DNA from: Arthrobacter sp. 35W | GTDB lineage: Bacteria > Actinomycetota > Actinomycetes > Actinomycetales > Micrococcaceae | Direction of reading: 5' to 3' | NCBI RefSeq assembly: GCF_000482545.1 | Contig: NZ_KI519454.1 | Span: 2,454,954 to 2,518,953, forward strand | Length of the DNA stretch: 64,000 bases | Shown: positions 40,992 to 56,728 of the stretch, piece after piece | Layout: every line of letters begins with the position of its first letter | Numbering within the stretch: the stretch's first letter is position 1 | The notes under the pieces: generated by a model | What the model saw: the letters and a program-made list of their open reading frames with translations, nothing else | Databases searched by the model: none | Told to the model about the DNA's origin: nothing | Program-made: the position numbers and the translations under genes

Positions 40992-41049
40992 GGCGGTGGT
41001 CCTTCCGGGATTCGGGTGTAGATGGTGCTGAGTGCTAGTTGGACGAGTG

Positions 41050-42540: not shown

Positions 42541-42656
42541 CATGGGCTCCTTTACCCGGCACCTCCCCCAGTGCGGCAGTGGCTGATTGTTGAGGTTGGG
42601 CCAGCGTGTGCAGCGTGTTCGCTGCTGCCCCGGTCCATGTGAGCTGCGTTACGAAA

Positions 42657-42695
42657 AGTAAATCACTTTCGGCAACGTTTGGCAACCGCTTGCCA
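42657..42695 (-). promoter_or_regulatory. Promoter with LacI-type operator, symporter operon
   Basis: -35 TTGCCA (42680-42685), spacer 17 bp, -10 TTTACT (42657-42662). The operator TGGCAACCGCTTGCCA (42680-42695) covers the -35 box. An extra half-site CGGCAAC lies nine bases away on the downstream side. Confidence 0.8.
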
Positions 42696-42808
42696 CAAAT
42701 TTCTCCCGACTTCCTTCCACCCCGCCCCGCCAGTCCCCGGATGCGCCAAAGGCACCCATCGCGGCCGCCGGGCGGAACAGCCGCAATGGGTGCCTCGTGG
42801 CGGATCGG

Positions 42809-44218
42809 TTAGGCGCGGCTGGGGACCGCGGCAGCGAGGAGGTCCAACTGTGCCGCCACCTGTGCGGCAACATCCCCGTCCTGGGCCCATGCGGGTTCCA
42901 GCAGGGTGAGCAAGGCCGCCAGGTCCTCGCCAAGGCCCAGCTCCAGCGCCGTGGACAACTGCGCAGCTGCCGGGTCCTTGATCTCGGCATGCTCGGTGTG
43001 CGCCGTGCGCAGGAACGCCACCCAGGCGGCAATCATCCTGGCAGCGGCGTCGCCGCTGCGGCCCTGGGCGCGCTCCGCCTTGAGGACTGGTACGGCGCGC
43101 ATTCGCAGCTTGGCGGAGCCGTCCATGGCGATCTGGGCCAGGTGGTGGGAAATGCGGGCATTGGCAAAGCGCTCCAGCAGCGCCGCCCGGTAGGCGGGGA
43201 TGTTCAATCCCTTGGCCGGCAGGTTGGCTTCCGCCTCATCCCAGAACTCTTCCACCCAGCCGGCGCACACCGGATCGGCCAGCGCCTGGGCCACGGTGGT
43301 GTGGCCGCGCAGCTGGCCGGCGTAGGCCATCAGCGAGTGAGCACCGTTGAGCAGCCAGAGCTTGCGGTTTTCGAAGGGTTCAATCTCCTCCACCAGAACA
43401 GCGCCGGCGGCCTCCCAAGCCGGCCGGCCCGCGGGGAAGGCACCGCTGAGGATCCAGTCGCGGAACGGTTCCGTCACCACGGGGGACGCGTCGGCAAATC
43501 CTGTGGCGCCGGCCACCAGATCCACCTCGGCCTCGGTGGTCCGCGGCGTGATGCGGTCAATCGAACTGGAGACGAAGCTGACGTTGGCGTCGATCCAGGC
43601 CCCCAGCGCCGCATCAACAATGGAGGCCAACCCGAGCACTGCCGCCCGGGCGGCCTCTCCGTTGCTGGCCAGATTGTCGCAGGATACGACGGCGATCGGG
43701 CCGGCACCGGAGCGGCTCCGCGCCTCCAGGCCCTGGACCAGACGACCAATGGGTGTGGTGGCCGGGGCATTGCCGCCAGCCACCACACCACGGAGCAGCT
43801 CGATGTCCGAGGCCACATCGGGGTGTGCCGCATCAAGGGTTCCGTCAGCGGCGAGGCGGTAGGCCGCCTCCGTGATGGTCAGGGTGACGATGGCGGTTGA
43901 CCCGGCGACCAGCAGTTCACACAGCCGGGCGACATCCGCGCCGTCGTTGGCCTCCACGATGCTCTGGATGACCTCGAACGAATCGCCGTCCCCGGAGCGT
44001 TCGATCAGGGTGTACAGCCCGTCCTGGGCTGCCAGCGCGATCGCCGCGTCGGGGCGGCGGCCGGTGAAGGAGGCAATGCCCCACTCCCCCGCCGGATCCG
44101 CCTGCTGGGTGAACCAGGCCTGGTGGGCCCGGTGGAAGGCACCCAACCCCAGGTGGACGATCCGCACGGGTGCGGCCGGACGGGCGGGGAAGGTGCTGCG
44201 GTTCAGCGGAGCGGTCAT
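42809..44218 (-). CDS. uxuB: Mannitol dehydrogenase-family oxidoreductase, probable fructuronate reductase
   Basis: A 469-residue NAD-dependent polyol dehydrogenase. The Rossmann start RIVHLGLGAFHRAHQAWFT is the family signature, with SCDNLASNGEAARAAV (catalytic-domain entry) and FENRKLWLLNGAHSLMAYAG containing the conserved lysine and KxxxxN-x-x-H. Next to uxaC and manD the expected reaction is D-fructuronate to D-mannonate. Its ATG overlaps the uxaC stop (ATGA). Mannitol or other sugar-acid activity cannot be excluded from sequence alone. Confidence 0.88.
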   Translation of the reverse strand: MTAPLNRSTFPARPAAPVRIVHLGLGAFHRAHQAWFTQQADPAGEWGIASFTGRRPDAAIALAAQDGLYTLIERSGDGDSFEVIQSIVEANDGADVARLCELLVAGSTAIVTLTITEAAYRLAADGTLDAAHPDVASDIELLRGVVAGGNAPATTPIGRLVQGLEARSRSGAGPIAVVSCDNLASNGEAARAAVLGLASIVDAALGAWIDANVSFVSSSIDRITPRTTEAEVDLVAGATGFADASPVVTEPFRDWILSGAFPAGRPAWEAAGAVLVEEIEPFENRKLWLLNGAHSLMAYAGQLRGHTTVAQALADPVCAGWVEEFWDEAEANLPAKGLNIPAYRAALLERFANARISHHLAQIAMDGSAKLRMRAVPVLKAERAQGRSGDAAARMIAAWVAFLRTAHTEHAEIKDPAAAQLSTALELGLGEDLAALLTLLEPAWAQDGDVAAQVAAQLDLLAAAVPSRA

Positions 44219-45687
44219 AGCTTGAAGGCCCTTCGGGGTGCGGCGTCGACGATGTCGACGATGATGGAGCGGGCACGGTCTTCGGAGATCCGGTGCTCGG
44301 CCACCAGGCGGGCCAGGAAACTGGCCTCCACCCGGCGGGAGGTGTTGTGCCGGGCGGGGATGGAGCAGAAGGCCCGCGTGTCGTCGATGAAACCCGAGGA
44401 ACGGGAGAAGCCGGCGGTTTCGGTGACAGCTCCACGGAAACGCATCATGGCATCGGGTGCGTCCAGGAACCACCACGGGGCACCGATGTAGACAGCCGGG
44501 TAGAAGCCGGCCAACGGCGCGATTTCACGGGAGAACACAGTCTCGTCGATGGTGAACGGGATGAAGTGGAAGCCCGGTTCCGTGCCAAAGTCCGCCAAGA
44601 GCGGCCGCAGGGCCTCGGTGTAGGTCACGGCAAAGGGAATGTCGTGGCCGGTGTCTGCGCCAAAGCGGTCGAACGTGCTGCTGTGGTGGTTGCGGAAGAC
44701 GCCCGGGTGCAGCGTCATGACCAGGCCGTCGGCCACGGACATCCGCGCCATTTCGTACATCATGTGGGCTTCGAAGACGTCGGCATCGGCGGCCGTCGCC
44801 TCGCTGCGGCGGGCCTTCTCAAAGAGCGCCTCCGCCGCACCGGCGTCGATCTTCAGGGTCAGGGCGGTGCGGGAGCCGTGGTCTGCCGAGACGGCGCCGT
44901 GCTGCACAAAGTACTGGCGGCGGTTCTCCAGGGCACGGATGTAGCCGGCGTAGCCAACCACGCCCTCCCCCGCTTCGCCAATGAGACGCTCCACGCGCTC
45001 GGCCCAGCCGGCAGCGTGGAACTTGATGTAGGCGTCGGGGCGGAAGGTAGGCAGCACCCGGCCGGCAAAGGTCGGATCGGCAGCCAGGGCCGCGTGGGCG
45101 CTGAGATCATCCAGCGGATCATCCGTGGTGGCCATGACCTCCAAATTGAAGTCCTTGAACAGCTGCCGCGGCCGGAAGCTGGGCTCCTGCAGGCGAGCAT
45201 TGAGCTTGTCGTAGAGGGCATCGGCCGTTTCCTGGCTCTGGTCGCGGTCCAGCGGCCCCAGATCAAGCTTGAAGACGTTGGCAAACTCATCACGGATCCA
45301 GTAGCCGGAAGCGGTGCCATCGAACAAGGGCCAGGCCTTGGCGAATTCACGCCAGGTTTCGCGCGGCTCCACCCCAGTCGTGCCGCCAACGCGCAGGCGC
45401 TCCAGCGGGGCGCCATTGGCGTGGATGAGGCGGGTGACGTAGTGGTCCGGACTCACCAGCAGCGTTGCCGGGTCCGGGAAGGGGGTGTCGTTGAAGATCA
45501 TGGCCGCATCGACGTGGCCATGCGGGGAAATGATCGGCAGGTCCTCCACCTGGGCGAGCAGGTCCCGGGCAATCGCCCTGGTGCCGGGGTCGGCAGGCAA
45601 CAGGCGGTCCGGGTCCGAACCCAGGGAAGACGTCATGCCAACAGCAGCTGATTCGAGGGGCGCGGCATCCGCGAGTGATTGTGACAT
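44215..45687 (-). CDS. uxaC: Glucuronate isomerase
   Basis: Converts D-glucuronate to D-fructuronate (and galacturonate to tagaturonate). The 490-residue protein has the amidohydrolase-like motif ISPHGHVDA (H56, H58), LFDGTASGYWIRDEF, the late TLHPGVFRNHHSSTF and the C-terminal NTSRRVEASFLARLVAEH, all UxaC hallmarks. ATG 45687 lies at the expected transcription start of a promoter with a LacI-type operator, hence leaderless. First gene of a uxaC-uxuB operon ending at 42809. Confidence 0.96.
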   Translation of the reverse strand: MSQSLADAAPLESAAVGMTSSLGSDPDRLLPADPGTRAIARDLLAQVEDLPIISPHGHVDAAMIFNDTPFPDPATLLVSPDHYVTRLIHANGAPLERLRVGGTTGVEPRETWREFAKAWPLFDGTASGYWIRDEFANVFKLDLGPLDRDQSQETADALYDKLNARLQEPSFRPRQLFKDFNLEVMATTDDPLDDLSAHAALAADPTFAGRVLPTFRPDAYIKFHAAGWAERVERLIGEAGEGVVGYAGYIRALENRRQYFVQHGAVSADHGSRTALTLKIDAGAAEALFEKARRSEATAADADVFEAHMMYEMARMSVADGLVMTLHPGVFRNHHSSTFDRFGADTGHDIPFAVTYTEALRPLLADFGTEPGFHFIPFTIDETVFSREIAPLAGFYPAVYIGAPWWFLDAPDAMMRFRGAVTETAGFSRSSGFIDDTRAFCSIPARHNTSRRVEASFLARLVAEHRISEDRARSIIVDIVDAAPRRAFKL

Positions 45688-45693
45688 AGATCA

Positions 45694-45733
45694 ATCGTCA
45701 AGCAGTGCAAGCCGTTTGTCAACCGGTTGCCAA
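45694..45733 (-). promoter_or_regulatory. Promoter with LacI-type operator, uxaC operon
   Basis: -35 TTGACA (45717-45722), spacer 17 bp, -10 GACGAT (45694-45699), start codon six bases on. The operator TTGTCAACCGGTTGCCAA (45716-45733; one mismatch between arms) covers the -35. A further half-site CGGCAAC lies upstream of it. Confidence 0.82.
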
Positions 45734-45769
45734 AAGTTGCCGAGTGAGTTTTTGGCCAGCTGGGAAGGG

Positions 45770-46822
45770 TTAGGAAACGCGCCCCGTGGAGCCCCTCAGG
45801 ACCAGTTCGGTGGGCAGCGGCTCCGCGGCGCCGTCAGAGCCTGCACCCTTCAGATCCGCCAGGATGCGGGCCAGCGCCTCCGCACCGGCCTCGCGCAGCG
45901 GCGAACGGATGGTGGACAGTGGCGGCGTGGTGAAATCGGAGCCAAAGATGTTGTCGAAGCCCAGGATGCTGATCTTGTCCGGCACCACGACGCCGGCCAG
46001 CTGAAGCTCCTGCATCAGCCCGATGGCCATCAGATCGTTGTAGCAGAAGACGGCTGTGGCTCCGCTGGCCCGCACTGCCGCGGCGGTTCGGCGGCCGCCT
46101 TCAACCGTGGGGGCACCGGCGGCGACCTGCACGGCGTCGAGCCCGGACCAGGCGCAGCGCGCCTTCAGGCTCTCCCAACGGCGTGCCGACATCCACGACT
46201 TCTCGGGGCCGGCCACATAGGCCAGCGAGGTGTGGCCCATCAGCGCGAGGTGGCGCACGGCCTCCCCCACGCCGGCGTCGATGTCGGCCACGATCGAGTG
46301 GACGCCGTCGACCTGGCGGTTGATGACGGCCACTGGCTTCTCCTTGGCCAGGGCGAGGATTTCGGGGTCGGCGAGCCGCGGGCTGGCCAGGATGATGCCA
46401 TCAACTGTGGCAAGCATCCGCTGCGCGGTAGTGAGCTCCTGGGCGGCGGATTCGGCGGACTCGGCCAGCATCAAGGTGTAGTCCTCGCCGGCGGCGGCGG
46501 CCTCGGCCCCGCGGATCACGTCGAAGTATGCCGGGTTGGTGATGTCGGAGACGATCAGGCCCACCGTGTGGGTGCGCCCGGTGGGCAGGGCGCGGGCAAA
46601 GACGTTCACCCGGTAGTTCAGTGTTGCCGCGGCGTCTTCAATCAGCTTCTGCGTCTTGGCGCTCACGCGGCCGGGCTTGCTCAGCGCCCGCGACACGGTG
46701 GAGGGGTTCACGCCCGCCATCTCGGCAATGTCGTAGATGGTCGGCGCCGACTTGCCGGCCCGGGGTGCTGCTGCCACGGTGTCCGGACTGTTGCTGTCCT
46801 CAAGATTGGTCACAGCTGCCAT
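45770..46822 (-). CDS. LacI-family transcriptional regulator (1)
   Basis: Repressor of about 350 residues. After a disordered N-terminal tail comes the LacI helix-turn-helix PTIYDIAEMAGVNPSTVSRA and hinge NYRVNVFARALPTGR, then a periplasmic-binding-protein-like effector domain (HTVGLIVSDITNPAYFDVIRG; FCYNDLMAIGLMQEL; ILGFDNIFGSDFTTPPLSTI). The start is uncertain: GTG 46840, ATG 46822 and GTG 46813 are all in frame and none has a Shine-Dalgarno; a terminator-like hairpin covers the first two. Likely controls the uxaC, symporter and/or ABC promoters. A half-operator TGGCAACC lies at about 46857. Confidence 0.9.
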   Translation of the reverse strand: MAAVTNLEDSNSPDTVAAAPRAGKSAPTIYDIAEMAGVNPSTVSRALSKPGRVSAKTQKLIEDAAATLNYRVNVFARALPTGRTHTVGLIVSDITNPAYFDVIRGAEAAAAGEDYTLMLAESAESAAQELTTAQRMLATVDGIILASPRLADPEILALAKEKPVAVINRQVDGVHSIVADIDAGVGEAVRHLALMGHTSLAYVAGPEKSWMSARRWESLKARCAWSGLDAVQVAAGAPTVEGGRRTAAAVRASGATAVFCYNDLMAIGLMQELQLAGVVVPDKISILGFDNIFGSDFTTPPLSTIRSPLREAGAEALARILADLKGAGSDGAAEPLPTELVLRGSTGRVS

Positions 46823-46851
46823 CGTACCCGTGAAGGGCACGATGGCAGCTG
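46813..46851. terminator. Hairpin overlapping the lacI(1) start region
   Basis: 13-bp perfect arms CAGCTGCCATCGT/ACGATGGCAGCTG (46813-46825/46839-46851) with an inner CCC/GGG. It lies 15 bp past the end of the leftward oxidoreductase gene and includes possible lacI start codons, so it may both end the long ABC operon and affect lacI translation. Confidence 0.6.
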
Positions 46852-46865
46852 ATTTCTGGCAACCG

Positions 46866-48032
46866 CTAGCCGCGCTCGGGGAACTTGCCCTCTTCGCGGA
46901 TCCGCTTGTTCAGCAGTTCCAGGAACTCGTTCTCGTCGAAGTCCAGGCCCACTTCCTCGCCCTTCCAGCTGGAGAGGTGGATCGCGTTGGCCAGACGGAC
47001 GCCGTTGATGCCGTCGGAGCCGGGGGCCAGCAGCGGCGTGCCATCCAGAACGTTGGCCGCGAAGTTCTCCAGCACGCCGGCATGCTGGGCACCCCACGGC
47101 GAGTCAAACTCGATGACCTCGGTGGTCCGGTAGTCGTCCATGTTCAGCTGGCCGGTGAACAGTTTCATGACGTCGCCCATGTCCATGGAGCTGCTGATCT
47201 CTCGCTCCGTCTTCTTCAGGCGGGTCACCGTGGCGGTCTTGGAACCCTCGACGACGATCTTGCCGGCGTCGCCGAGAATCTCGAAGCGGTCCGTGCCGAC
47301 CATGTCGTGCGTCGCGGTGACAAACGTTCCGGTGGCGCCGTTGCCGTAGTCGACGACGGCCGTGACCTCGTCTTCGACGACGATGTCGCGGCGGAAACCG
47401 TAGGAGACCTTCGAGAAGACGGACTTCGGCACGCCGCAGATCCACTGCCACAGGTCCAGCTGGTGCGGCGCCTGGTTGACCAGGACACCGCCACCCTCGC
47501 CACCCCAGGTGGCGCGCCAGGCGCTGGAATCGTAGTAGCCCTGCGGACGCCACCAGGTGGTGATGACCCAGTTGGTGCGCAGGATGTTGCCGATCTCGCC
47601 GTTGTCGACAATCTCCTTCAGGCGCTTGTACAGCGGGTTGTTGCGCTGGTTGAACATGATCCCGAAGGAGAGCTCGGGCTTGGAGGCGGCGAAATCGTTG
47701 AGCTCCTTGACCTGCTTGGTGTAGACGCCGGCCGGCTTCTCCACCAGAGCGTGGATGTCGCGCTGCAGGGCCGCAATGCCCATTTCCGGGTGCAGGTAGT
47801 GCGGCACGCAGGTGACGATGGCGTCAACGTCGCCGCTTTCCAGCAGGGCCACGTAGTCCTCATAGACCGGGACGCCGGGATAAGCCGCAGCGGCCACGTC
47901 GCGCTTGGCCGGGTCGGTGTCGGCGATGGCGCCGATGACCATGTTGGGGACCTGTCCGTCCGTGATGAACTTGGCGTACATGCCGCCCTGCTGGCCCAGG
48001 CCGATAATGCCGAGGCGTACTTTGTTGCTCAT
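46866..48032 (-). CDS. Gfo/Idh/MocA-family oxidoreductase (1)
   Basis: A 388-residue NAD(P)-dependent sugar dehydrogenase. N-terminal Rossmann GIIGLGQQGGMYA, the family EKP motif (ALVEKPAGV) with the catalytic lysine, and the C-terminal active-site stretch GGEGGGVLVNQAPHQLDLWQW with the conserved histidine. ATG 48032 (MSNKVRLG) has GGAG nine bases upstream. Last gene of the ABC operon, right after a TIM-barrel isomerase gene. This pairing is seen in pathways that oxidise glycosides at C3 (3-keto sugars) or oxidise inositols; which one applies is open. Confidence 0.88.
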   Translation of the reverse strand: MSNKVRLGIIGLGQQGGMYAKFITDGQVPNMVIGAIADTDPAKRDVAAAAYPGVPVYEDYVALLESGDVDAIVTCVPHYLHPEMGIAALQRDIHALVEKPAGVYTKQVKELNDFAASKPELSFGIMFNQRNNPLYKRLKEIVDNGEIGNILRTNWVITTWWRPQGYYDSSAWRATWGGEGGGVLVNQAPHQLDLWQWICGVPKSVFSKVSYGFRRDIVVEDEVTAVVDYGNGATGTFVTATHDMVGTDRFEILGDAGKIVVEGSKTATVTRLKKTEREISSSMDMGDVMKLFTGQLNMDDYRTTEVIEFDSPWGAQHAGVLENFAANVLDGTPLLAPGSDGINGVRLANAIHLSSWKGEEVGLDFDENEFLELLNKRIREEGKFPERG

Positions 48033-48097
48033 GGGGAGATGCTCCATTCATAGTGCAATGCCGCCAGCCGTTGATGCGGCCGGCGGCGGTGAAAAAT

Positions 48098-48958
48098 CTA
48101 GAAGAGGTCCTTGAAGCCAAGGCCCACGAGGTTGTCGTAAGAGGTCTGCAGCGCATCCCAGACGGTCCGCCCGTACAGCTCGTCCTGCTCCACCAGCATG
48201 TACTGCGCTCCAGCTGCCTGTGCGGCAGGGACGATCGAGGCGAAGTCGAGGTTGCCCTCGCCCACCTCGGCAAACTGCACCACGTTCTTGAAGTCCCCCA
48301 TGAAGCCGGCGATGTCGCCCGCTTCCAACTTTCCGAACGCCTCCGGAGCGAGGGCGCCGATGCGGTAGTCCTTCAGGTGGACCATGGCAGTGCGGTCGGC
48401 ATACTTTTCGATGGTCCGCACCGGGTCAAGCCCGCCACGCTGCACCCAGTGCACGTCCAGTTCAAGGCCCATGGCCGGGGAGTTCTCGACGATGATGTCC
48501 AGCATGTACTTGCCATCGAACTTCGCGAACTCGATGTGGTGGTTGTGGTAGTACAAACCGATGCCGTGCTCGGCGAGCTTTTCGGCGTAGCCGTTGGCTT
48601 CCTTGGCGAAATCGACGACGGCGCCGATCGAGGACATCGCACCGAATGGCAGCATGCCGATGCGCACCAGCTTGGCGTCCAGACGCTTGGCATCGTCAAC
48701 GATCTTGTCGAAGTCATCGCGCAGGGATTCCCCGGGCCGGCCCACCGGCTTCTCCACCATGACGGAGAGCGAAGCAATGTCCATGCCGAGCTCCGCACGG
48801 GCCTGCTCCAGTTCGGCGACGTTGGCACCGTTCATCTCGATCTGCGAGATTTCGACGGCGTTGTAGCCGATTGCATTGACCTTGCGGAGGGTTTCAAAGG
48901 CGCCAACCTCCGCGAAGCTCTCCCGCAGCATCATTGCCTGCACACCGATTTTTGCCAT
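48098..48958 (-). CDS. Sugar phosphate isomerase/epimerase-type TIM barrel (1)
   Basis: A 286-residue xylose-isomerase-like TIM barrel (AP endonuclease 2 fold): YNAVEISQIEMNGA, LYYHNHHIEFAKF, LELDVHWVQRGG (conserved D and H), MVHLKDYRIGAL and EVGEGNLDF with the metal-binding Glu/His/Asp set. Start ATG 48958: AGGAGG is eight bases upstream and too close to the ATG two codons earlier. Related proteins act as 3-keto-glycoside isomerases or lyases, or inosose dehydratases. Same operon as the oxidoreductase downstream and the ABC genes upstream. Confidence 0.86.
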   Translation of the reverse strand: MAKIGVQAMMLRESFAEVGAFETLRKVNAIGYNAVEISQIEMNGANVAELEQARAELGMDIASLSVMVEKPVGRPGESLRDDFDKIVDDAKRLDAKLVRIGMLPFGAMSSIGAVVDFAKEANGYAEKLAEHGIGLYYHNHHIEFAKFDGKYMLDIIVENSPAMGLELDVHWVQRGGLDPVRTIEKYADRTAMVHLKDYRIGALAPEAFGKLEAGDIAGFMGDFKNVVQFAEVGEGNLDFASIVPAAQAAGAQYMLVEQDELYGRTVWDALQTSYDNLVGLGFKDLF

Positions 48959-49032
48959 GTTCATTTCCTCCTGTTGTTGCTGTCCGGACCTTGCGTTCCG
49001 GTAGTTTCGTGCGTGCCTGTCGATCGACTCGG

Positions 49033-49932
49033 TCAGACGGCCACACCGGCCTGTTCAGTGGTTTGGCGCTGCAGTTCCAGCAGCCGGTGCCTGTCGGCGC
49101 GGCGCTGCTCCTGCCGGTCCGGGTCCGGCACTGGCGAGGCCAGCAGCAGACGCTGGGTGTAGGGGTGTTCCGGGGCGACTGTCACCTGGTCGGCCGGCCC
49201 CTGCTCCACGATCTCGCCGTGGTACATGACGGCGACGCGGTGGCTGATGTGGCGCACCACGTCCAGGTCGTGGGAGACGAAGAGGTAGGAGACCCCTGTG
49301 TCACGCTGGATCTGCAGGAACAGGTCCAACACCACCGCCTGGGTGGTGAGATCCAGCGCACTGACGGGCTCATCACAGACAATCAGCTTCGGCGACAGCG
49401 CCAGAGCCCGGGCAATGGCCACGCGCTGGCGCTGGCCGCCGCTGAATTCGCGGGGCAGGCGGTTGATGGCGTCGGAGGGCAGGCCCACCTGGTCCAGCAG
49501 TTCCTTCACCCGGGCGCGGGCCTGCGCCGGCGACTGCCCCTGGACGCCCAGCGGCTCAGCGAGGATGGAGCCGATTTCCATCGAGGGGTTCAGCGAGGTG
49601 TACGGGTCCTGGAAGACCACCTGCAGATCACGACTGAGCTCCCGGCGCTGCTTGCGCGTGGCATGGCTGATGTCGTTGCCCTCGAAGGTGACGGTGCCAG
49701 CCGTGACGGGGGCGAGCCCCAGCACTGCCCGGCCGAGGGTGGTCTTGCCCGATCCGGACTCCCCCACTAGACCCAGGGTTTCGCCCGGCTTGATGGAGAT
49801 GTTGATGTCCGTCAGGGCCCGGAACGGCTTGGCCCGGAAATGCTTCGTGGGGTATTCAACCACCAGCGAATCAACCGTCAGCAGGTTCTCCCCTGCCGAC
49901 TGCGCGTGGCGCGGTGCTGTTGCCTGTGCCAT
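49033..49932 (-). CDS. Peptide-type ABC transporter ATP-binding protein (DppF/OppF-like)
   Basis: A 299-residue ATPase: Walker A GESGSGKTT, Q-loop VVFQDPYTSLNP, signature FSGGQRQRVAIARAL, Walker B LIVCDEPVSALDL and the OppF-type C-terminal HPYTQRLLLASPVPDP. Start ATG 49932, seven bases after GGAGG; an ATG two codons earlier overlaps the preceding stop but is too near the Shine-Dalgarno. Works with the ATPase domain of the preceding fusion gene. In this genomic context the cargo is more likely a glycoside or oligosaccharide than a peptide. Confidence 0.92.
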   Translation of the reverse strand: MAQATAPRHAQSAGENLLTVDSLVVEYPTKHFRAKPFRALTDINISIKPGETLGLVGESGSGKTTLGRAVLGLAPVTAGTVTFEGNDISHATRKQRRELSRDLQVVFQDPYTSLNPSMEIGSILAEPLGVQGQSPAQARARVKELLDQVGLPSDAINRLPREFSGGQRQRVAIARALALSPKLIVCDEPVSALDLTTQAVVLDLFLQIQRDTGVSYLFVSHDLDVVRHISHRVAVMYHGEIVEQGPADQVTVAPEHPYTQRLLLASPVPDPDRQEQRRADRHRLLELQRQTTEQAGVAV

Positions 49933-49934
49933 TC

Positions 49935-51746
49935 TCATGCCTCCATTCCAGCCGGGACCAGCATGGTCATGGGTTCCTTGCCCTCAAGCATGGAGCCCAG
50001 GAGTTTCTGTGTATACGGATCGGACGGGTTGCGCAGGATCTCGCGCACCGGCCCCTCTTCGACCAGTCGGCCGTTCTGCATGACCACCACGCGGTCGCAC
50101 AGGTCCGAGACCACGCCGAAGTTGTGGGTCACCAGGAGCACTCCCACGCCGAGGCGCTTCTGCAGGTCGCGGATCAGGTCCAGAACATCGGCCTGGACGG
50201 TGACGTCCAAGGCGGTGGTGGGCTCATCGGCAATGATCAGGTCCGGCTCGCAGCTGATGGCGCCGGCGATCAGGACGCGCTGGGCCATGCCGCCGGAGAC
50301 CTCGTGCGGGTAGGCCTTGAAGGTCCGCTCCGGGCTGACGATGCCGACGTCGGCCAGCAGCTTCATGGCCCGTGAGGTGGCCTCGGCCTTGGAGATGCCC
50401 AGGACGCGCATCATCGGCGTCACCAGCTGGTAGCCGATGGTGAAGGCCGGGTCCAGGTTGGACATCGGTTCCTGCGGAATGTAGGAGATCCGCTTACCGC
50501 GCAGGGAGGACACCCGGCCCTGGCTGACGACATCGTCGCCCGGGGCCACGGTGTAGTTGCCGTCGAACTGGATGCAGCCGGCCACGATGCGGGCGTTGTC
50601 AGGGAGCAGGCCGAGGATGGAGAAGGCGGTCTGCGACTTGCCAGAGCCGGACTCGCCCACGATGCCCAGGACTTCGCCCCGGTCAAGGTGGAAGGAGACA
50701 TCGTCGACGACTTTCTTGACGGAACCGTCGGCCTGCGGGTAGCCCACGCCGAGGTGGGAGACCTTCACCAGGTGGTGCTCGGTGCCGGCGTCCACGGTGG
50801 CAACCTTGCGGCGGTCGGCACGGCTGGCGGGCGCGGCACCCCCAGCGGCAGGCGCCGGAGCGGCCTTGCGGGCCTTGATCTTGACGCCGTCTTCCAGGGC
50901 GTCGCGGACGGCGTTGCCCAGCAGCACCAGGCCGCCGATGCTCAGGCCAATGGCCAAGGCCGGCCAGAGCAGCAGGGTCGGATTGAGGTAGACGTTTTTG
51001 AAGCCCTCGCTGAGCATCACGCCCCAGGTGGCCACTGTGGGATCGCCCAGGCCCAGGAATTCCAGGCCGGACTGGATGGCGATGGCAATGCCGCACACCA
51101 TGGCCGTCTGGATGATGATGGGTGCACGGACCACGGAAAAGATGTGCCGGGCGATGATGCTTCCATCGCTGAGGCCGGCCACCCGGGCCGCGTCCACGTA
51201 GAGCTCGTTGCGGACCGCCTGGACGGAGGTGCGGGTCAGCCGGAAGTACCCGGGGCTGAGCAGGACGCCGAAGGCAACCATGGAGATCCACACCGACGGA
51301 CCGAAGGCGGCCCGGACGGTGAGCAGCACGATGATGCCGGGCAGGCTCATGAGGATGTTGACCACCCAGTTGGCCACCGCGTCGAACTTTCCGCCGTAGT
51401 AGCCGGCGATCAGGCCTGTCGGCAGGCCGATGACAATGGCAACGGTGGCACAGAGCAGGGCCGAGAGCAGCGTGGTGCGGGCTCCGAAGACCAGCCGGCT
51501 CCAGACGTCGCGGCCCACACTGTCGGTGCCCAGGAGGTTGGAGGCATCGGGGGATGCCAGCGTCTTGCCAATGTTGGCAAAATTCGGGTCGAAGGGGGCC
51601 AGCACGTTGGCCAGCACCGCCATCAAGATCATCAACGACAGGATGGCGATGGCCGTAATGCCCAGGGGATTCTTCAGGATCCGGGTGATGACGCGGGAAC
51701 GGACCACCGTTCCGGTCTGGCCACTTGCGGCTGCAGGCTGGCTCAT
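49935..51746 (-). CDS. ABC transporter permease-ATPase fusion (DppC-DppD type)
   Basis: One continuous 603-residue frame. Residues 1 to ~290 are a DppC-type permease (early TRILKNPLGITAIAILSLMI, GTDSVGRDVWSRLVFGARTT, and the EAA loop DAARVAGLSDGSIIARHI). An Ala/Pro-rich linker (~293-320) leads to a DppD-type ATPase with Walker A GESGSGKS (364-371), VSGGMAQRVLIAGA and IADEPTTALDV, ending HTQK-like DPYTQKLLGSM. ATG 51746 overlaps the stop of the DppB-type gene (ATGA). No internal stop or frameshift. The fusion fixes one permease to one ATPase. Confidence 0.9.
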   Translation of the reverse strand: MSQPAAASGQTGTVVRSRVITRILKNPLGITAIAILSLMILMAVLANVLAPFDPNFANIGKTLASPDASNLLGTDSVGRDVWSRLVFGARTTLLSALLCATVAIVIGLPTGLIAGYYGGKFDAVANWVVNILMSLPGIIVLLTVRAAFGPSVWISMVAFGVLLSPGYFRLTRTSVQAVRNELYVDAARVAGLSDGSIIARHIFSVVRAPIIIQTAMVCGIAIAIQSGLEFLGLGDPTVATWGVMLSEGFKNVYLNPTLLLWPALAIGLSIGGLVLLGNAVRDALEDGVKIKARKAAPAPAAGGAAPASRADRRKVATVDAGTEHHLVKVSHLGVGYPQADGSVKKVVDDVSFHLDRGEVLGIVGESGSGKSQTAFSILGLLPDNARIVAGCIQFDGNYTVAPGDDVVSQGRVSSLRGKRISYIPQEPMSNLDPAFTIGYQLVTPMMRVLGISKAEATSRAMKLLADVGIVSPERTFKAYPHEVSGGMAQRVLIAGAISCEPDLIIADEPTTALDVTVQADVLDLIRDLQKRLGVGVLLVTHNFGVVSDLCDRVVVMQNGRLVEEGPVREILRNPSDPYTQKLLGSMLEGKEPMTMLVPAGMEA

Positions 51747-52684
51747 GAAACACGCACCTTCGGGTTGAGCCAACCGTTGATGAGATCCACCAGCAGGTTG
51801 ACAATAATGACGATGACAACGGTGTACAACACCACACCCATGACCAGGGGGATGTCTCCCATGGTGGTGGACTGGACGGCCAAGGCGCCCATGCCCGGCA
51901 GGGCAAAGATTTGTTCGAGGATGACCACACCACCGAGCATGCCGATGAACTGCAGGCTCAGGACGGTCAGCCCGGCCGGCGCGGCGCTGCGCAGGACGTG
52001 CTTGAAGAGGATTTCGCGTTCGCTGATGCCGCGGCTGCGCAGCGTGCGGACGTAGTCCTTCTCCAGCTGCTTGATCACGGCGCTGCGGATCTGCTGCGCA
52101 CCGCCCGTCACTCCGTTGATCAGCAGGGCGATCACGGGCAGGGCCAGCGAGGCGATCCATACGTCGGCACCGGCACCGGGGACGATGGAGCTGGTGGCGG
52201 GGAATAGCTTCAACTGGATGGCGAAGAGCGTCACCAGGACGATGGCAATGACGAATCCGGGGATGGCGTCGCCCACGACGGCGGCGGTCTGGACCACGCG
52301 GTCGATCCAGCCGCGCTTGACCGCGGCGGCCATTCCCAGCAGGGTGGCGCAGATGGCGATCAGCACAATGGCGACCACGACCAGCGTCAGCGTCACCGGC
52401 AGCCGGTTCTCCAGTGCGTGGACCACGGGCTCGGCGGTGAACCACGAGGTGCCGAAGTCGCCGGTGATGGCGTGTCCTGCCCAGGCGAAGAACCGGGTCA
52501 TGAGGGGCTGGTCCAGCCCGAGGGCAACCTCCTTGGCCGCCACCTGGTCCTGGCTGGCGAATTCACCGAGGATGTTGCGCGCGATGTTGGCGCTGGAGAA
52601 GTAGAGGAGGACATAGGTGATGAAGGAGATGGCGCAGAGGACCACGATGCCCGCGGCAACTCGGCGAAGAATAAAGGTAAGCAT
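51743..52684 (-). CDS. Peptide-type ABC transporter permease (DppB-like)
   Basis: A 313-residue inner-membrane permease with six helices. Start MLTFILRRVAAGIVVLCAIS and the DppB motif SWFTAEPVVHALENRLPVTL; EAA loop TLRSRGISEREILFKHVLR; end NLLVDLINGWLNPKVRVS. GGAG is seven bases before ATG 52684. Stop overlaps the start of the permease-ATPase fusion. Second gene of the operon that starts with the binding protein at 54288. Confidence 0.94.
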   Translation of the reverse strand: MLTFILRRVAAGIVVLCAISFITYVLLYFSSANIARNILGEFASQDQVAAKEVALGLDQPLMTRFFAWAGHAITGDFGTSWFTAEPVVHALENRLPVTLTLVVVAIVLIAICATLLGMAAAVKRGWIDRVVQTAAVVGDAIPGFVIAIVLVTLFAIQLKLFPATSSIVPGAGADVWIASLALPVIALLINGVTGGAQQIRSAVIKQLEKDYVRTLRSRGISEREILFKHVLRSAAPAGLTVLSLQFIGMLGGVVILEQIFALPGMGALAVQSTTMGDIPLVMGVVLYTVVIVIIVNLLVDLINGWLNPKVRVS

Positions 52685-52758
52685 TGTGCGCTCCGTTTGG
52701 GATGGCTGCGGGTGTGGTGCCGGCGGCGAGGGGCTGGCCCTCCCCGCCGGCGGCCATG

Positions 52759-54288
52759 CTATTTGGCGGGTGCGTAGTTGTAGATGGACGGGACCGCCTG
52801 CTGGAGCTGCGGGGTGACAGTGATCGCCTTGGACGTGTAGTACATCTGGTTGAGGCGGTACAGCGGGGCGAACCAGGCGTTGTCCGTCACGTAGGTGTTG
52901 ACGTCCTTGGCCAGCTCAGCGCTGTTGGTGCCACCATTGTGGACGGCATCAATCATTGCCTGCAGTTCCGGCGTGGTGGCCTTGAACGGGTTGTACAGGG
53001 CGGTGGTGGAGATCATCTGGTTGATGGCAACCCACGGCTCGCCCTGGTAGAGCTGGAACGGAGCTACGGCAAACTTGCCCGCAGCAAAGTCGGAGACCAC
53101 GTTGGCATTCGGCACGGGTACGGATTCAACCTTGATGCCGACGTCGCCCAGCTGCTGGGTGATGACCGCAACAATCGCCTCGTAGCCGGTGAAGGAGGGC
53201 AGCTTGAGCGTGAATCCGTTGGCGTAGCCTGCCTCGGCCAGCAGCGACTTGGCCTTCGCCGGATCGTAGTTGTACTTGTTTTCGAGCCCCTCGACGTAGG
53301 CGCCCGATTCAGGGCCGAAGACCTGGTCGGTCACGGTGCCCTGGCCCAGATACTGCTGTTCCAGGATGGTCTTGCGGTCGAAAGCGAAGTTGATGGCCTG
53401 GCGGACCTTGACGTTGGCCAGCTCCGGGTTGATCTTGCCGTCCCGGTCAAAAAGCAGCAGCCCCTGCCAGTCCACCTGGCTGGAATTGAGCTTCATACCC
53501 GCCGCTTCGGCCTGCTTGCCGGTCTTGGGGTCCAGGAGGGCGCCGTCGATCTGGCCGGACACCAGGGCGTTGGTGCGGGCAGTGAGGTCCGGAAGGATCT
53601 TGATGGTGACCTTGGCAAACTTCTGGAGGTCAGCGTTCCAGTAGCCCTCGCGCTTGGTGAAGACGTACTGCGAGCCAACCACCGAGCTGGCCTTGTCCAT
53701 CACGTAGGGACCGGTGCCGTCCGGCGCCGCTGCCATTTCCGGGGTTCCCAGGGCCTTGGGGCTGCCCATCAGGCCGGCGGCCTGGGTCAGGTAGTACTCG
53801 AAGGCGGGATCCGGTGTGGCCAGGGTGATCTTGATGGTGCTGTCGTCCACCACGTCAACCGAGCCCAAGGACGCAACCTGGTAGGCGTCGGATCCCTTGG
53901 CCTTCTTGAAGTAGTCCAGGTTGGCCTTGGCCGCGGCGGCGTCGAACTTGGCTCCATCACTGAAGGTGACACCCGTGCGCAGGCTCACCGTCAGGACGGT
54001 GTTGTCCGCGTTGTATTCCCACTTGGTGGCCAGCATCGGGGCGAGCTTGCCGTCCGGGAGGCGCTGGATCAGGGAGTCGTAGGCCGTCTGGAAAATCGGC
54101 ATCGTGTGGCCGATGTGTGCCACCGAGGTGTCGAAGGATTTGAGATCCTGCAGACTTGCCAAGGTGAGGCTGGTGGTGCCGGCAGCGGCCGGGCCGGCCG
54201 GCGTGCCGCCGCCTCCGCCACAGGCGGAGAGGGCAATTGTCATTGCCGCAATCGCCGCGACGGACGCGGCCTTTGGACCAAACTTCAT
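52759..54288 (-). CDS. ABC transporter substrate-binding lipoprotein (family 5)
   Basis: A 509-residue SBP_bac_5 protein. Signal peptide with lipobox ALSACGGGGG, then the family motif TGVTFSDGAKFDAAAAKANL and DGTGPYVMDKASS, later NVKVRQAINFAFDRKTIL. AAGGAG is seven bases before ATG 54288. Cluster C binding proteins bind peptides, nickel, or oligosaccharides and glycosides; the LacI-type operator on its promoter and the sugar genes downstream favour a sugar ligand. First gene of an operon running through three ABC genes, a TIM barrel and an oxidoreductase to 46866. Confidence 0.92.
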   Translation of the reverse strand: MKFGPKAASVAAIAAMTIALSACGGGGGTPAGPAAAGTTSLTLASLQDLKSFDTSVAHIGHTMPIFQTAYDSLIQRLPDGKLAPMLATKWEYNADNTVLTVSLRTGVTFSDGAKFDAAAAKANLDYFKKAKGSDAYQVASLGSVDVVDDSTIKITLATPDPAFEYYLTQAAGLMGSPKALGTPEMAAAPDGTGPYVMDKASSVVGSQYVFTKREGYWNADLQKFAKVTIKILPDLTARTNALVSGQIDGALLDPKTGKQAEAAGMKLNSSQVDWQGLLLFDRDGKINPELANVKVRQAINFAFDRKTILEQQYLGQGTVTDQVFGPESGAYVEGLENKYNYDPAKAKSLLAEAGYANGFTLKLPSFTGYEAIVAVITQQLGDVGIKVESVPVPNANVVSDFAAGKFAVAPFQLYQGEPWVAINQMISTTALYNPFKATTPELQAMIDAVHNGGTNSAELAKDVNTYVTDNAWFAPLYRLNQMYYTSKAITVTPQLQQAVPSIYNYAPAK

Positions 54289-54390
54289 TGTTGGCTCCTT
54301 GCAAGTGATGCCCTTGAATCCAAGGACTGAGGGAAGGGGACCTTCTGGTAGCCCGTGTGGCCTACGCCACATTCCGGGTCTGTGTGCTCA

Positions 54391-54430
54391 AGATTACTGG
54401 CGTTGCCACCATTTGGCAACCGATTGTCAA
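54391..54430 (-). promoter_or_regulatory. Promoter with LacI-type operator, ABC operon
   Basis: -35 TTGCCA (54414-54419), spacer 17 bp, -10 TAATCT (54391-54396). The operator TTGGCAACCGATTGTCAA (54413-54430) covers the -35, and a further half-site TTGCCA lies five bases downstream of the core. The gap 54289-54597 otherwise holds only the ~100-base leader and a terminator. Confidence 0.8.
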
Positions 54431-54536
54431 ACTTATTTCGAAATGCCCCCAAGGGCGGCCCTCCAGCGGCCCCGAACACCCAAAATTTCGACACTCTTGC
54501 CATCCCTGGCAACACTGCAATGGCTCCCGAAAACGA

Positions 54537-54572
54537 GCGAAGGGCTCCGGCGCATGCGCCGGAGCCCTTCGC
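54537..54572 (-). terminator. Terminator of the second oxidoreductase operon
   Basis: A 36-base perfect palindrome with arms GCGAAGGGCTCCGGCGC, centre GCATGC, 26 bp past the end of the gene at 54598. No U-run on the minus strand apart from a short TTTTCGG. Confidence 0.8.
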
Positions 54573-54597
54573 CAGAAGCCGTGCTGCTGTGCGCCCG

Positions 54598-55605
54598 CTA
54601 GGACACGTCAAACCCCGCGCCAGGGTAGCTCTGCCGGTACAGCTCCTTGATGATCCGCAGCGACTTTGCCGCCTCCGCGGGGTCGATCCAGAAGGGCCCT
54701 GGCTGGCCCAGCTGGCCGTAGAAGTCCTCGATCAGCAGGGCGTGTGACGCCCCCCAATACCCGCGGCCACCGGTTGCAGCGGACCGCTCGGGCGTCACCT
54801 CCACCCGGCCGTCGTCGTACGTCACAGTCAGCGCGCCGCGCAGGCTCAGCTGAGCCTTCTCCGTGTCAATGTCCAGGGTGATCGGTGCATTGACGGTGTT
54901 GGACAGCGTCGCGTAGAAGATGCTTCTGGCGCCATTGCTGTGGTGGAGCACCAGATCGGTGGTGTCCTCCACCTCGATGGCATCCCCCAGGGTCCGGGTG
55001 GAAGCCTCGCCCGACACCTCGTCGACACCGCCCACGAGCCACTGGAGCAGATCGAGGGTGTGGATGGCCTGGTTCATCATCATCCCGCCGCCGCCACCGG
55101 CCCAGGTTCCACGCCAGGGGCGGTCGCGGTAGTACTCTGCGGTCCTGCTCCACAGAACGGTGGCTGCCCCGCCGCGCACCTGCCCCAAATCGCCGGAGGA
55201 GAGCAGCCGGTGCATCTCCTGCACGGGGGCGTTGTAGCGGTTCTGGAAACAGATGCCAATGCGGGCAGTGCTGGCCGCAGCCGCCGCGACCAGGCGCTCC
55301 CCCGCGGCCAGGGTGTGCGCCAACGGCTTTTCCAGGATCACATTCACCCCGGCAGCCAGCGCATCGACGGCCAGGTCGACATGGGTATTGTGCGGCGTGC
55401 AGATGTGGACCACCTCCGCGCCCGCCTCCGCAAGCAAAGCGCGGTGGTCCGCATATCCCGGCACGCCATGGGCGGCCGCAGCTTTCGCCAACCGCTCCGG
55501 GTCCGGGTCGCAGACGGCCACCAGCTCCGCATCGGGATGTGCCGAGATGGCGTCGAAGTGCACGCTCGATACATCACCACAACCAATTACTGCCACCTTT
55601 GGCAT
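54598..55605 (-). CDS. Gfo/Idh/MocA-family oxidoreductase (2)
   Basis: A 335-residue NAD(P)-dependent dehydrogenase: MPKVAVIGCGDVSSVHFDAI, VILEKPLAHT (EKP catalytic lysine), GGGGGMMMNQAIHTLDLLQW with the conserved histidine. About 50 residues shorter than the paralogue at 46866 and clearly diverged, so the two probably act on different substrates or steps. AAGGAG lies five to six bases before ATG 55605. Probably co-transcribed after the TIM-barrel gene from the operator-controlled promoter at 56.6 kb. Confidence 0.88.
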   Translation of the reverse strand: MPKVAVIGCGDVSSVHFDAISAHPDAELVAVCDPDPERLAKAAAAHGVPGYADHRALLAEAGAEVVHICTPHNTHVDLAVDALAAGVNVILEKPLAHTLAAGERLVAAAAASTARIGICFQNRYNAPVQEMHRLLSSGDLGQVRGGAATVLWSRTAEYYRDRPWRGTWAGGGGGMMMNQAIHTLDLLQWLVGGVDEVSGEASTRTLGDAIEVEDTTDLVLHHSNGARSIFYATLSNTVNAPITLDIDTEKAQLSLRGALTVTYDDGRVEVTPERSAATGGRGYWGASHALLIEDFYGQLGQPGPFWIDPAEAAKSLRIIKELYRQSYPGAGFDVS

Positions 55606-55683
55606 AACTGCTCCTTATTGGCTACACACTGCAAAATGGGACTGTCCACGCTGGCAGCCGGGGAACCGGCCGGACCGCGCTGG

Positions 55684-56532
55684 CTAGCGCAGCGAAACGC
55701 CGATGCGGCCGGTGAGCTCGGCAAAGGCGCGCGCGGCCTCACCGAAGGCCTGGGGTCCGGAGAACCCGCCAAGCTCGTGCTGGGCGGCCAGGTGCGGCTC
55801 CAGCGAGGCGAAGCCGGTGTAGCCATCGTTGCGCAGGGCCGTCAGCGTCTCTTCCAGCTCGCCGTCGCCGCGGCCGGCAGGCACCACTTCGCCGCTGCCG
55901 GCAATGGCGTCCTTCACCTGGAGGTATTCCAGGTAGGGGCGCAGCTGTGCGTAGGCATCGGTGAACGGCTTCACGCCCACCTGCACGAAGTTGGCGTTGT
56001 CCCACGCGGCGCGCAGGGCCGGGGAGTTGACGGTTTCCATCAGGTCCAGGACACGCTCGGGGGTGTCGCCGTAGATGTCCTTTTCGTTTTCGTGCAGAAG
56101 CACGACGCCGGCACGCTCGGCCTCGGCCGCAAGCAGCGTCATGCGCTCCATCACCGCGTCACGGATCTCCTCGGGCGTCTGCCCGGCTGAGCGGAAGAAG
56201 GAGAAGATGCGGATGTACGTGGTGTCCAGCGCCTTGGCGACTTCAATGATGCGGCGGAGCCGGGCCACCTCGTCCGCCGCGGGCAGGGAAATGTCCACCT
56301 TGCCGATGGGGCTGGCCACCGCCGAAACCTTCAGGCCGGCGCCATCGAGGATGTCCTTCAGCTTGGCGGTCTGGACCTCGTCCAGATCCACCACATTGGT
56401 GCCCCAGGCGCTGCGGACCTCAATGTGGCTCGCGCCGAGGGCCAGCAGAACGGCCGCCTGGACCGCGGGATCGGGGTCAATCTCATCGCCGAATCCGGAC
56501 AGGGTCCAGGTGGCTGCTGCGGTCTGCGTCAT
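55684..56532 (-). CDS. Sugar phosphate isomerase/epimerase-type TIM barrel (2)
   Basis: A 282-residue xylose-isomerase-like TIM barrel: TLSGFGDEIDPDPAVQAAVL, GASHIEVRSAWGTNV, VVLLHENEKDIYGDTPERVL (metal Glu/His region), AWDNANFVQVG and YLQVKDA. ATG 56532 has GGAGG about six bases upstream; an ATG 22 codons earlier lacks one. First gene after the minus-strand promoter at 56588-56616. Paired with oxidoreductase (2), as TIM barrel (1) is with oxidoreductase (1). Confidence 0.86.
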   Translation of the reverse strand: MTQTAAATWTLSGFGDEIDPDPAVQAAVLLALGASHIEVRSAWGTNVVDLDEVQTAKLKDILDGAGLKVSAVASPIGKVDISLPAADEVARLRRIIEVAKALDTTYIRIFSFFRSAGQTPEEIRDAVMERMTLLAAEAERAGVVLLHENEKDIYGDTPERVLDLMETVNSPALRAAWDNANFVQVGVKPFTDAYAQLRPYLEYLQVKDAIAGSGEVVPAGRGDGELEETLTALRNDGYTGFASLEPHLAAQHELGGFSGPQAFGEAARAFAELTGRIGVSLR

Positions 56533-56587
56533 TGCGCTCCTCCAAATGTCGACAATCGTGACTCGCTTCACAATTGCATTGACCTCG

Positions 56588-56649
56588 ATCCTAGCCATTC
56601 AGCAACTCGTTGACAACCGATTGCCAAATCATGGCAAAGGCTCTATGGT
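56588..56649. promoter_or_regulatory. Divergent promoters sharing one LacI-type operator
   Basis: Operator TTGACAACCGATTGCCAA (56610-56627). Rightward (lacI 2): -35 TTGCCA 56621-56626, 17 bp, -10 TATGGT 56644-56649. Leftward (TIM barrel 2): -35 TTGTCA 56611-56616, 17 bp, -10 TAGGAT 56588-56593. Both -35 boxes lie inside the palindrome. An extra TGGCAA half-site follows on the right. Confidence 0.82.
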
Positions 56650-56728
56650 TGCCTTCTACACACTGTGTCCCCGCTCACATAATGCGGCCGGGGTCTCCTC
56701 TCATCCAGCGAAGAATGAGGCATCAGCC

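Follow-up and report, generated by a model that had tools for sequence, protein, structure and literature searches.

The 64,000-nucleotide stretch of Arthrobacter sp. 35W DNA analysed here (the window) carries a cluster of glucuronate genes, in which four predicted palindromic operators lie over the -35 hexamers of five promoters. From the sequence comparisons below we propose, with good confidence, that they form one local glucuronate/glucuronide regulon: two LacI-family proteins encoded in the cluster, LacI1 and LacI2, would both bind the four operators and repress the promoters of a glucuronide symporter, of uxaC, of the sbp/ABC transporter operon, of tim2 and of lacI2. A preliminary description of this DNA had read such a five-promoter regulon with a shared operator, and the sites, their conservation and their co-occurrence with the regulators, all of which were computed, support it. 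From these results we infer binding, repression, the effector, the role of a third operator unit, and the binding and direction of action of a CRP/GlxR-type protein.

In the proposed mechanism, the paralogues LacI1 and LacI2 would recognise the same sequence, TTGNCAANCGNTTGNCAA. In every operator one of the units would coincide with a -35 hexamer, and at 56610 each of the two divergent promoters would have a unit of its own; the bound dimer would keep RNA polymerase off the symporter, uxaC, ABC operon, tim2 and lacI2 promoters. Through 56610, which serves both promoters, LacI2 would also repress the lacI2 gene. The lacI1 gene follows the ABC operon on the same strand and would therefore probably be controlled from 54413, perhaps with a contribution from a weak site at 46856. 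The repressors would be released by an inducer from the glucuronate pathway, a sugar acid or a catabolite. A third TTGNCAA-like unit would strengthen or modulate binding, and a global signal would probably come in as a second input, through a CRP/GlxR-type protein whose sites coincide with the starts of transcription or follow them closely.

Four operators stand out from the genome

The four palindromes were searched with the pattern TTGNCAACCGNTTGNCAA, with at most two mismatches on both strands and with shuffled windows as control. We obtained eight matches in the 64-kb window, that is four places on both strands, against a mean of 0.08 in the shuffled windows. On the plus strand the matches at 45716, 54413 and 56610 are exact, as had been described previously; the first site, formerly placed at 42680, is at 42679 and has one mismatch (it ends in CCAC). 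In the whole 4.66-Mb genome, TTGNCAANCGNTTGNCAA has three exact and two one-mismatch sites, four of these five being inside the window, and the four window operators are four of the five best-matching sites genome-wide. When TTGNCAANCGNTTGNCAA was read backwards as a control, one match with at most one mismatch was found in the whole genome.

Operator 1 (TTGGCAACCGCTTGCCAC, 42679..42696) lies over the symporter -35, operator 2 (TTGTCAACCGGTTGCCAA, 45716..45733) over the uxaC -35 and operator 3 (TTGGCAACCGATTGTCAA, 54413..54430) over the -35 of the sbp/ABC operon, and operator 4 (TTGACAACCGATTGCCAA, 56610..56627) is common to the divergent tim2 and lacI2 promoters. All were identified by pattern match and conservation, and no strand is assigned to them. 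A LacI-family operator is defined as a palindrome with a central CpG near the promoters of neighbouring sugar genes, and this is what we observed here, both in the sequence and in its conservation. The palindromes that had been described over the -35 of five promoters are therefore present, far above chance and, as shown below, conserved in relatives.

The fifth site of the genome (G000:C1:1304021; L105 10022), which has one mismatch, was kept out of the regulon, no link to the cluster being seen. It is found upstream of a gene that reads, by eye, like a phosphonate-type binding protein. Its 18 bases recur in another genome (G012), and the two surrounding stretches have no similarity to each other.

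The operators are conserved in relatives

The cluster was compared in 13 other genomes of the same genus that encode LacI1 and in one genome of another genus, G031; in G010 it is spread over three contigs, and G019 enters no count. Relatives were scanned with a matrix built from the four window sites. G031 was counted with the genus for -10 boxes, and with the other genera for the CRP/GlxR-like sites and the third unit. From the sets of other genera we dropped L208, which has no cluster site, two kinds of site in L210 (symporter-type and gfo2-side) and additional sites of L204, L209, L219 and L221.

We observed the operator before uxaC, and likewise before tim2, in 14/14 genus genomes with LacI1 (our own included) and in G031. 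It precedes sbp wherever the ABC operon is seen at this place (10 of 10 genomes), and it lies upstream of the symporter in all 10 genus genomes with the symporter in view, at a distance of about 2 kb in G014; in G003, where no symporter is in view, the operator is kept next to manD. The same operators also recur at orthologous promoters in other genera. A search for the palindrome upstream of orthologues had been named beforehand as one test of the regulon, which a lack of conservation would have refuted; its result is conservation in 14 genomes of the genus and beyond it.

Upstream of lacI1 we found a weak operator-like site, CTGGCAACCGCTAGCCGC (46856..46873, no strand), whose score of 12.6 is unremarkable, as unrelated places of the window (11937, 29683 and 57850) score 12.4-13.1. 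Weak counterparts of it precede lacI1 in some relatives, several of them being TTGGCAACCAATTGC or close to it.

Most of the promoters have conserved -10 boxes

The -35 hexamers given in the preliminary description were confirmed, TTGACA for uxaC, TTGTCA for tim2 and TTGCCA for the other three, each followed by a 17-bp spacer. On the minus strand, the -35 and -10 elements are at 42680..42685 and 42657..42662 (TTTACT) for the symporter, 45717..45722 and 45694..45699 (GACGAT) for uxaC, 54414..54419 and 54391..54396 (TAATCT) for sbp, and 56611..56616 and 56588..56593 (TAGGAT) for tim2; on the plus strand those of lacI2 are at 56621..56626 and 56644..56649 (TATGGT). All five -10 boxes had been called recognisable. 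This holds for sbp, tim2 and lacI2, whose boxes are fair, but those of the symporter and uxaC are weak.

Since the operator sequence itself dictates a TTGNCA hexamer at -35, it is the conservation of the -10 box that gives independent evidence for a promoter. We scored it by A2 and T6 of the box in the 14 genus genomes and G031. Both bases are present at 17 bp in 10/10 promoters of sbp, 12/15 of tim2 and 11/13 of lacI2. For uxaC the distance is 17 bp in 8/15 promoters and 18 bp in 7/15, so that the constant 17-bp spacer claimed earlier is true of the five promoters here but becomes 17 or 18 bp in relatives. None of the 11 symporter promoters has both bases, the boxes being TTWACT-like; those of other genera mostly have, by eye, a TAGGAT-like box at the corresponding place.

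Starts of transcription were predicted by counting 7 bases on from the -10 box. The start predicted for uxaC coincides with the A of its ATG, no ribosome site is seen before this ATG by eye, and in G011 and G031 we saw by eye no other in-frame ATG, GTG or TTG ahead of the conserved UxaC protein. For these reasons uxaC is probably leaderless, which is new here.

Both LacI proteins accompany the operator

LacI1 (45770..46840, minus strand) and LacI2 (56729..57766, plus strand) each match the Pfam LacI and Peripla_BP models over cut-off, with an N-terminal LacI helix-turn-helix and a periplasmic-binding-protein-like effector domain as expected of the family; none of the NCBIfam regulator models matches either protein over its cut-off. 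They are two paralogues in one genome, 42-43% identical, as an isorepressor pair would be. Among 23 genomes of the genus, LacI1 is found at 69% identity or more in 14 and LacI2 at 75% or more in 12.

We then compared their distribution with that of the exact operator in 395 genomes of the family, taking E <= 1e-100 for LacI1, E <= 1e-150 for close LacI2 orthologues and E <= 1e-120 for LacI2-like proteins. The exact operator is found in 54/395 genomes and LacI1 in 52/395; 49 have both, 5 the operator only, 3 LacI1 only and 338 neither (Fisher p = 5e-53; relatedness among the genomes is not corrected for, so that this value and the shuffles overstate independence). Close LacI2 orthologues are present in 39 genomes, all of which have LacI1. 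Among LacI1 genomes that lack a close LacI2 the exact operator is kept by 10/13, and among those that lack every LacI2-like protein by 8/9.

Conversely, 51 genomes have a LacI2-like protein without LacI1, and just 3 of them have the exact operator anywhere. When we examined the lacI2 locus in 19 of these 51, 17/19 contained between lacI2 and tim2 an operator-like site with a score of at least 13.99, a score reached elsewhere in 18 such loci at 2 of 149614 positions. By mismatch these 17 sites are 1 exact, 3 with one, 11 with two and 2 with three, and 13/17 are TTGGCAAYCGCTTGCC. One of the remaining two loci scores 13.4, and the other (G201) has nothing above 10.3. One genome of this set, G240, has a LacI1-like neighbour (51%), so that its locus is not clean.

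In the genomes and loci examined, LacI1 is therefore found with the operator where LacI2 is missing, and LacI2 where LacI1 is missing, the operator being exact or of a looser form, as would be expected of isorepressors. For this reason LacI1 and LacI2 probably both read the same operator, as GalR and GalS do. The earlier suggestion that two LacI proteins could bind it fits these data, either protein being absent in some genomes where operator-like sites remain.

It is possible, if somewhat unlikely, that the operators are instead divided, LacI1 acting on uxaC and the symporter and LacI2 on sbp, tim2 and lacI2, with little cross-binding. Indeed, in the genus and G031 the operators fall by eye into stable sub-classes, with AACCGG at uxaC (15/15), AATCGG at sbp (10/10) and tim2 (14/15), and AAGCGG at the symporter (7/11). 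Moreover, while both proteins have STVSRAL in the helix-turn-helix and an AxAL hinge, their recognition helices differ just before STVSRAL, NPS in LacI1 and AAS or TAS in LacI2. However, G002 and G003, which lack LacI2, keep AATCGG at tim2, though a third LacI there could serve, and G386 and G416 keep the AATCGG sub-class although their LacI2-like proteins are only distant ones.

We consider it very unlikely that LacI1 alone binds all four operators, LacI2 regulating something else and the operator at its gene being kept by common descent. The company of LacI1 in 49 of the 54 genomes with the exact operator would agree with this, as would the 8 of 9 genomes that keep the operator without any LacI2-like protein, but the palindromes between lacI2 and tim2 in 17/19 loci without LacI1 (G240 not being clean) speak against it.

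Several observations weigh against a single operator read by both proteins. At least four of the 8 genomes just mentioned (G002, G003, G071 and G154) have beside tim2 another LacI, 55-59% identical to LacI2, that could serve, and most sites in the loci with LacI2 only are inexact matches. The exact operator stands without LacI1 in five genomes, G146, G221, G211, G408 and G225; G146 and G221 have LacI2 in a uronate cluster, which fits, but in G211 and G408 the exact operators are away from cluster genes. Three LacI1 genomes lack an exact operator; those of G227 and G412 are degenerate, and in G119 no operator was found in the stretch examined.

A site that recurs in G408, TTGGCAAGCGATTGCCAA, was set aside, the nearby genes being by eye magnesium-transporter-like and aminopeptidase-P-like; around similar sites in G397 and G211 the surrounding stretch contains no cluster gene.

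In relatives, other LacI proteins were also seen with sites of their own. In G019 (L104 8384, 9477) a LacI beside uxaC is 44% identical to LacI1 and has no AxAL hinge; the palindrome ATGGCAACAAGTTGCCAC, which lacks a central CpG, stands before uxaC, with its mirror before the lacI gene. At uxaC a different LacI thus goes with a different palindrome, which indicates that the operator and the neighbouring LacI change together. A third LacI, 54-57% identical to LacI2 and present in five genomes of the genus, also lacks the AxAL hinge, and the sites before its gene lack the central CpG. TTGNCAA-like units at 11-bp steps precede this third lacI, with four overlapping hits in G004 (L096 19320-19370) and two in each of L099-L102.

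A third unit lies at the same gap in all four operators

The preliminary description had noted extra half-sites of two distinct kinds, a CGGCAAC type and an inverted one. The heptamer TTGNCAA is self-palindromic, so that orientation says little about such a half-site, and the two kinds are one. The extra half-sites are real, but they are of this single kind with the same 3-bp gap. All four operators have one additional TTGNCAA-like unit, with 5/6 fixed bases, 3 bp past one edge: TCGGCAA at operator 1 (42669..42675, in the spacer between -35 and -10), TTGCCGA at operator 2 (45737..45743, upstream of the uxaC -35), TTGCCAC at operator 3 (54403..54409, in the spacer) and ATGGCAA at operator 4 (56631..56637), none with a strand. 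The presence of this third unit at one gap in all four operators is new here.

We scanned gaps of 0-39 in relatives, on the side of the window's unit, a side that was chosen after looking. Within the genus, gap 3 gave the highest mean match of 6 for uxaC (4.36, background 1.40), the symporter (3.91, background 1.64), sbp (4.00, background 1.43) and tim2 (3.57, background 1.49). In other genera the best mean match was again at gap 3 for uxaC (4.89) and tim2 (4.06), but it was at gap 4 for the symporter (5.21) and at gap 2 for sbp (3.83), so that the spacing is not fixed everywhere. At tim2 in loci without LacI1 the third unit has a mean match of 5.35 at gap 3, and 16/17 score at least 4.

In the window sites, two units stand 11 bp apart around the CpG, and the third follows 10 bp further with no CpG between. 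A more speculative reading, which we regard as unlikely, is that the operator is a three-unit TTGNCAA array, one unit of which doubles as the -35 hexamer, and that the isorepressors may use its two registers differently. If this were true, the same bases would be both promoter element and repressor half-site, unable to change independently, and the third unit could let the dimer shift register and set promoter strength.

CRP/GlxR-like sites accompany the predicted starts of transcription

We took the best match to TGTGA-N6-TCACA, with at most two mismatches, in the 70 bp downstream of each operator. The consensus is the published one of GlxR (PMC7999487), and the test is not blind, since the motif was first noticed in these same promoters. 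Matches on the minus strand are CGTAACGCAGCTCACA at the symporter (42638..42653, two mismatches, centre about +4.5), ATTGATCTATGTCACA over the start codon of uxaC (45680..45695, two mismatches), TGTGGCGTAGGCCACA at sbp (54356..54371, two mismatches, centre about +20.5) and TGTGAAGCGAGTCACG at tim2 (56557..56572, one mismatch, centre about +16.5); on the plus strand TGTGTCCCCGCTCACA lies at lacI2 (56664..56679, one mismatch, centre about +15.5). Their centres thus range from about -0.5 to +20.5 relative to the predicted starts. All five promoters have such a site, against 119/9133 segments of 70 bp of the window, those holding the sites included.

The sites recur in the genus at 10/11 symporter, 14/14 uxaC, 9/9 sbp, 13/14 tim2 and 10/12 lacI2 promoters, and in other genera at uxaC (15/18), sbp (12/12), tim2 (11/16) and lacI2 (11/12). 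In the loci without LacI1, a set that here leaves out L196 (best gap site 10.3) and L203 (13.4), tim2 has one in 16/17. In the 70 bp upstream of the operator, used as a control in the genus, we found 0/11 for the symporter, 0/14 for uxaC and 1/9 for sbp; for tim2 and lacI2 this stretch is no control, as it holds the site of the divergent partner. Elsewhere in the genome there are two exact matches to the consensus. The genome encodes a CRP/GlxR protein, the best of two PF13545 matches over cut-off, which is close to the solved CRP/FNR-family chains 3d0s and 4byy, which are Mycobacterium tuberculosis CRP and Corynebacterium glutamicum GlxR. The conserved CRP/GlxR-like sites at or just after the predicted starts of most promoters are new here, and a CRP-type input is likely. 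At uxaC and tim2 their placement suggests repression.

Other results count against this part of the regulon. No site with at most two mismatches was found at the symporter promoter in other genera (0/14), nor at lacI2 in the loci without LacI1 (0/17). The block at uxaC is confounded with the -10 box and the first codons, and at sbp the best match in the genus stands at two distances, about 40 bases from the operator in 6/9 and 19 bases in 3/9. In addition, from the position of the sites one would rather expect repression, or an action on the divergent promoter, than classical activation of the same promoter.

It is hardly probable that the CRP/GlxR-like sites are the main control, activating unseen promoters downstream, with the operators over the -35 as upstream repressor or road-block sites. 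The regularity of the motif, which is found at sbp in 21/21 promoters of both sets (at most two mismatches) and at tim2 without LacI1 in 16/17, would agree with this, but the uxaC site covers the start codon, a tim2 start of transcription 41 bp further would fall within the gene, and by eye the aligned promoters show no conserved -10 after the site.

Before lacI2 in L090, L097 and L098, with variants in other relatives, the palindrome GGACAGTGCTGTCC adjoins the CRP/GlxR-like block between lacI2 and the operator. We did not retain it as a separate palindromic operator, as it fits AGTGN-N6-TCACA within the CRP/GlxR-like site, but it may still be one.

The genes of the cluster

By sequence, the cluster encodes a nearly complete glucuronate pathway, all of the following genes being on the minus strand. 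A fusion of a gluconokinase-like protein (TIGR01313 over cut-off) with a GH3 domain occupies 37480-39765; its relative in G010 (L091) is matched in one stretch over residues 11-761 at 82%. The ManD mannonate dehydratase (39762-41195), the GPH-family glucuronide transporter, which is the symporter (41050..42543, NF007353), and the glucuronate isomerase UxaC (44215..45687, NF002794) pass curated cut-offs. The name of the fructuronate reductase-like member of the mannitol dehydrogenase family (42809..44476) does not, NF011611 being below its cut-off; the true start of this reading frame is probably downstream of the listed one, which makes it overlap uxaC.

The other genes were assigned by domain search: the Gfo/Idh/MocA oxidoreductases gfo1 (46866..48047) and gfo2 (54598..55605), the xylose-isomerase-like TIM barrels tim1 (48098..48964) and tim2 (55684..56598), and sbp, the ABC solute-binding protein of family 5 (52759..54288, scanned as 52759-54372). 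The oligopeptide-type ABC transporter (49033..52684) is made of an ATPase (49033-49938), a single reading frame with permease and ATPase domains (49935-51749) and a permease (51743-52684). The listed start of tim2 is probably too far upstream, with an ATG after GGAGG near 56533 as the better candidate. The Gfo/Idh and TIM-barrel genes may take part in 3-keto-glycoside chemistry.

Comparison with known systems

Our searches of the literature on Arthrobacter glucuronate or LacI operators and regulons, on LacI-family hexuronate regulators and on GlxR, RegPrecise itself not included, brought up no account of this regulon. It would give the Micrococcaceae soil bacteria a concrete glucuronate/glucuronide regulon with named regulators, operators and promoters, and would place the unnamed genes for Gfo/Idh proteins, TIM barrels and the ABC transporter in the glucuronate pathway. 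There are genomes with either LacI protein alone and genomes with both, which are also material on how isorepressors diverge. The regulon overturns no general principle.

LacI-family hexuronate regulators (UxuR, UxaR, KdgR and ExuR) have been predicted by comparative genomics to control glucuronate and galacturonate genes (PMC4052901), and the present regulon resembles these groups in regulator family, in glucuronate genes and in the kind of prediction. The UxaR/UxuR/KdgR branch described there comes from Bacteroides, and "Arthrobacter" is absent from the main text of that article. As for the second input, the sites described here resemble the consensus of GlxR and actinobacterial CRP, of which the genome encodes a close relative; these predicted sites match it at 8 or 9 of the 10 fixed bases, and their position is on the predicted start or behind it.

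The closest parallel is GalR and GalS of Escherichia coli, which belong to the LacI family in a system where CRP co-regulates the gal genes. As in that pair, two paralogous LacI-family proteins would share the operators of one regulon, here as read from sequence. Isorepressors including GalR and GalS have been described as regulating identical or similar sequence motifs (PMC9189660). Unlike GalR/GalS, both regulator genes are inside the regulated cluster, every operator lies on a -35 hexamer and the pathway is that of glucuronate, not galactose. The regulon thus appears as a well-supported new example of familiar sugar control, GalR/GalS-like in kind, and the putative three-unit operator is its least ordinary feature.

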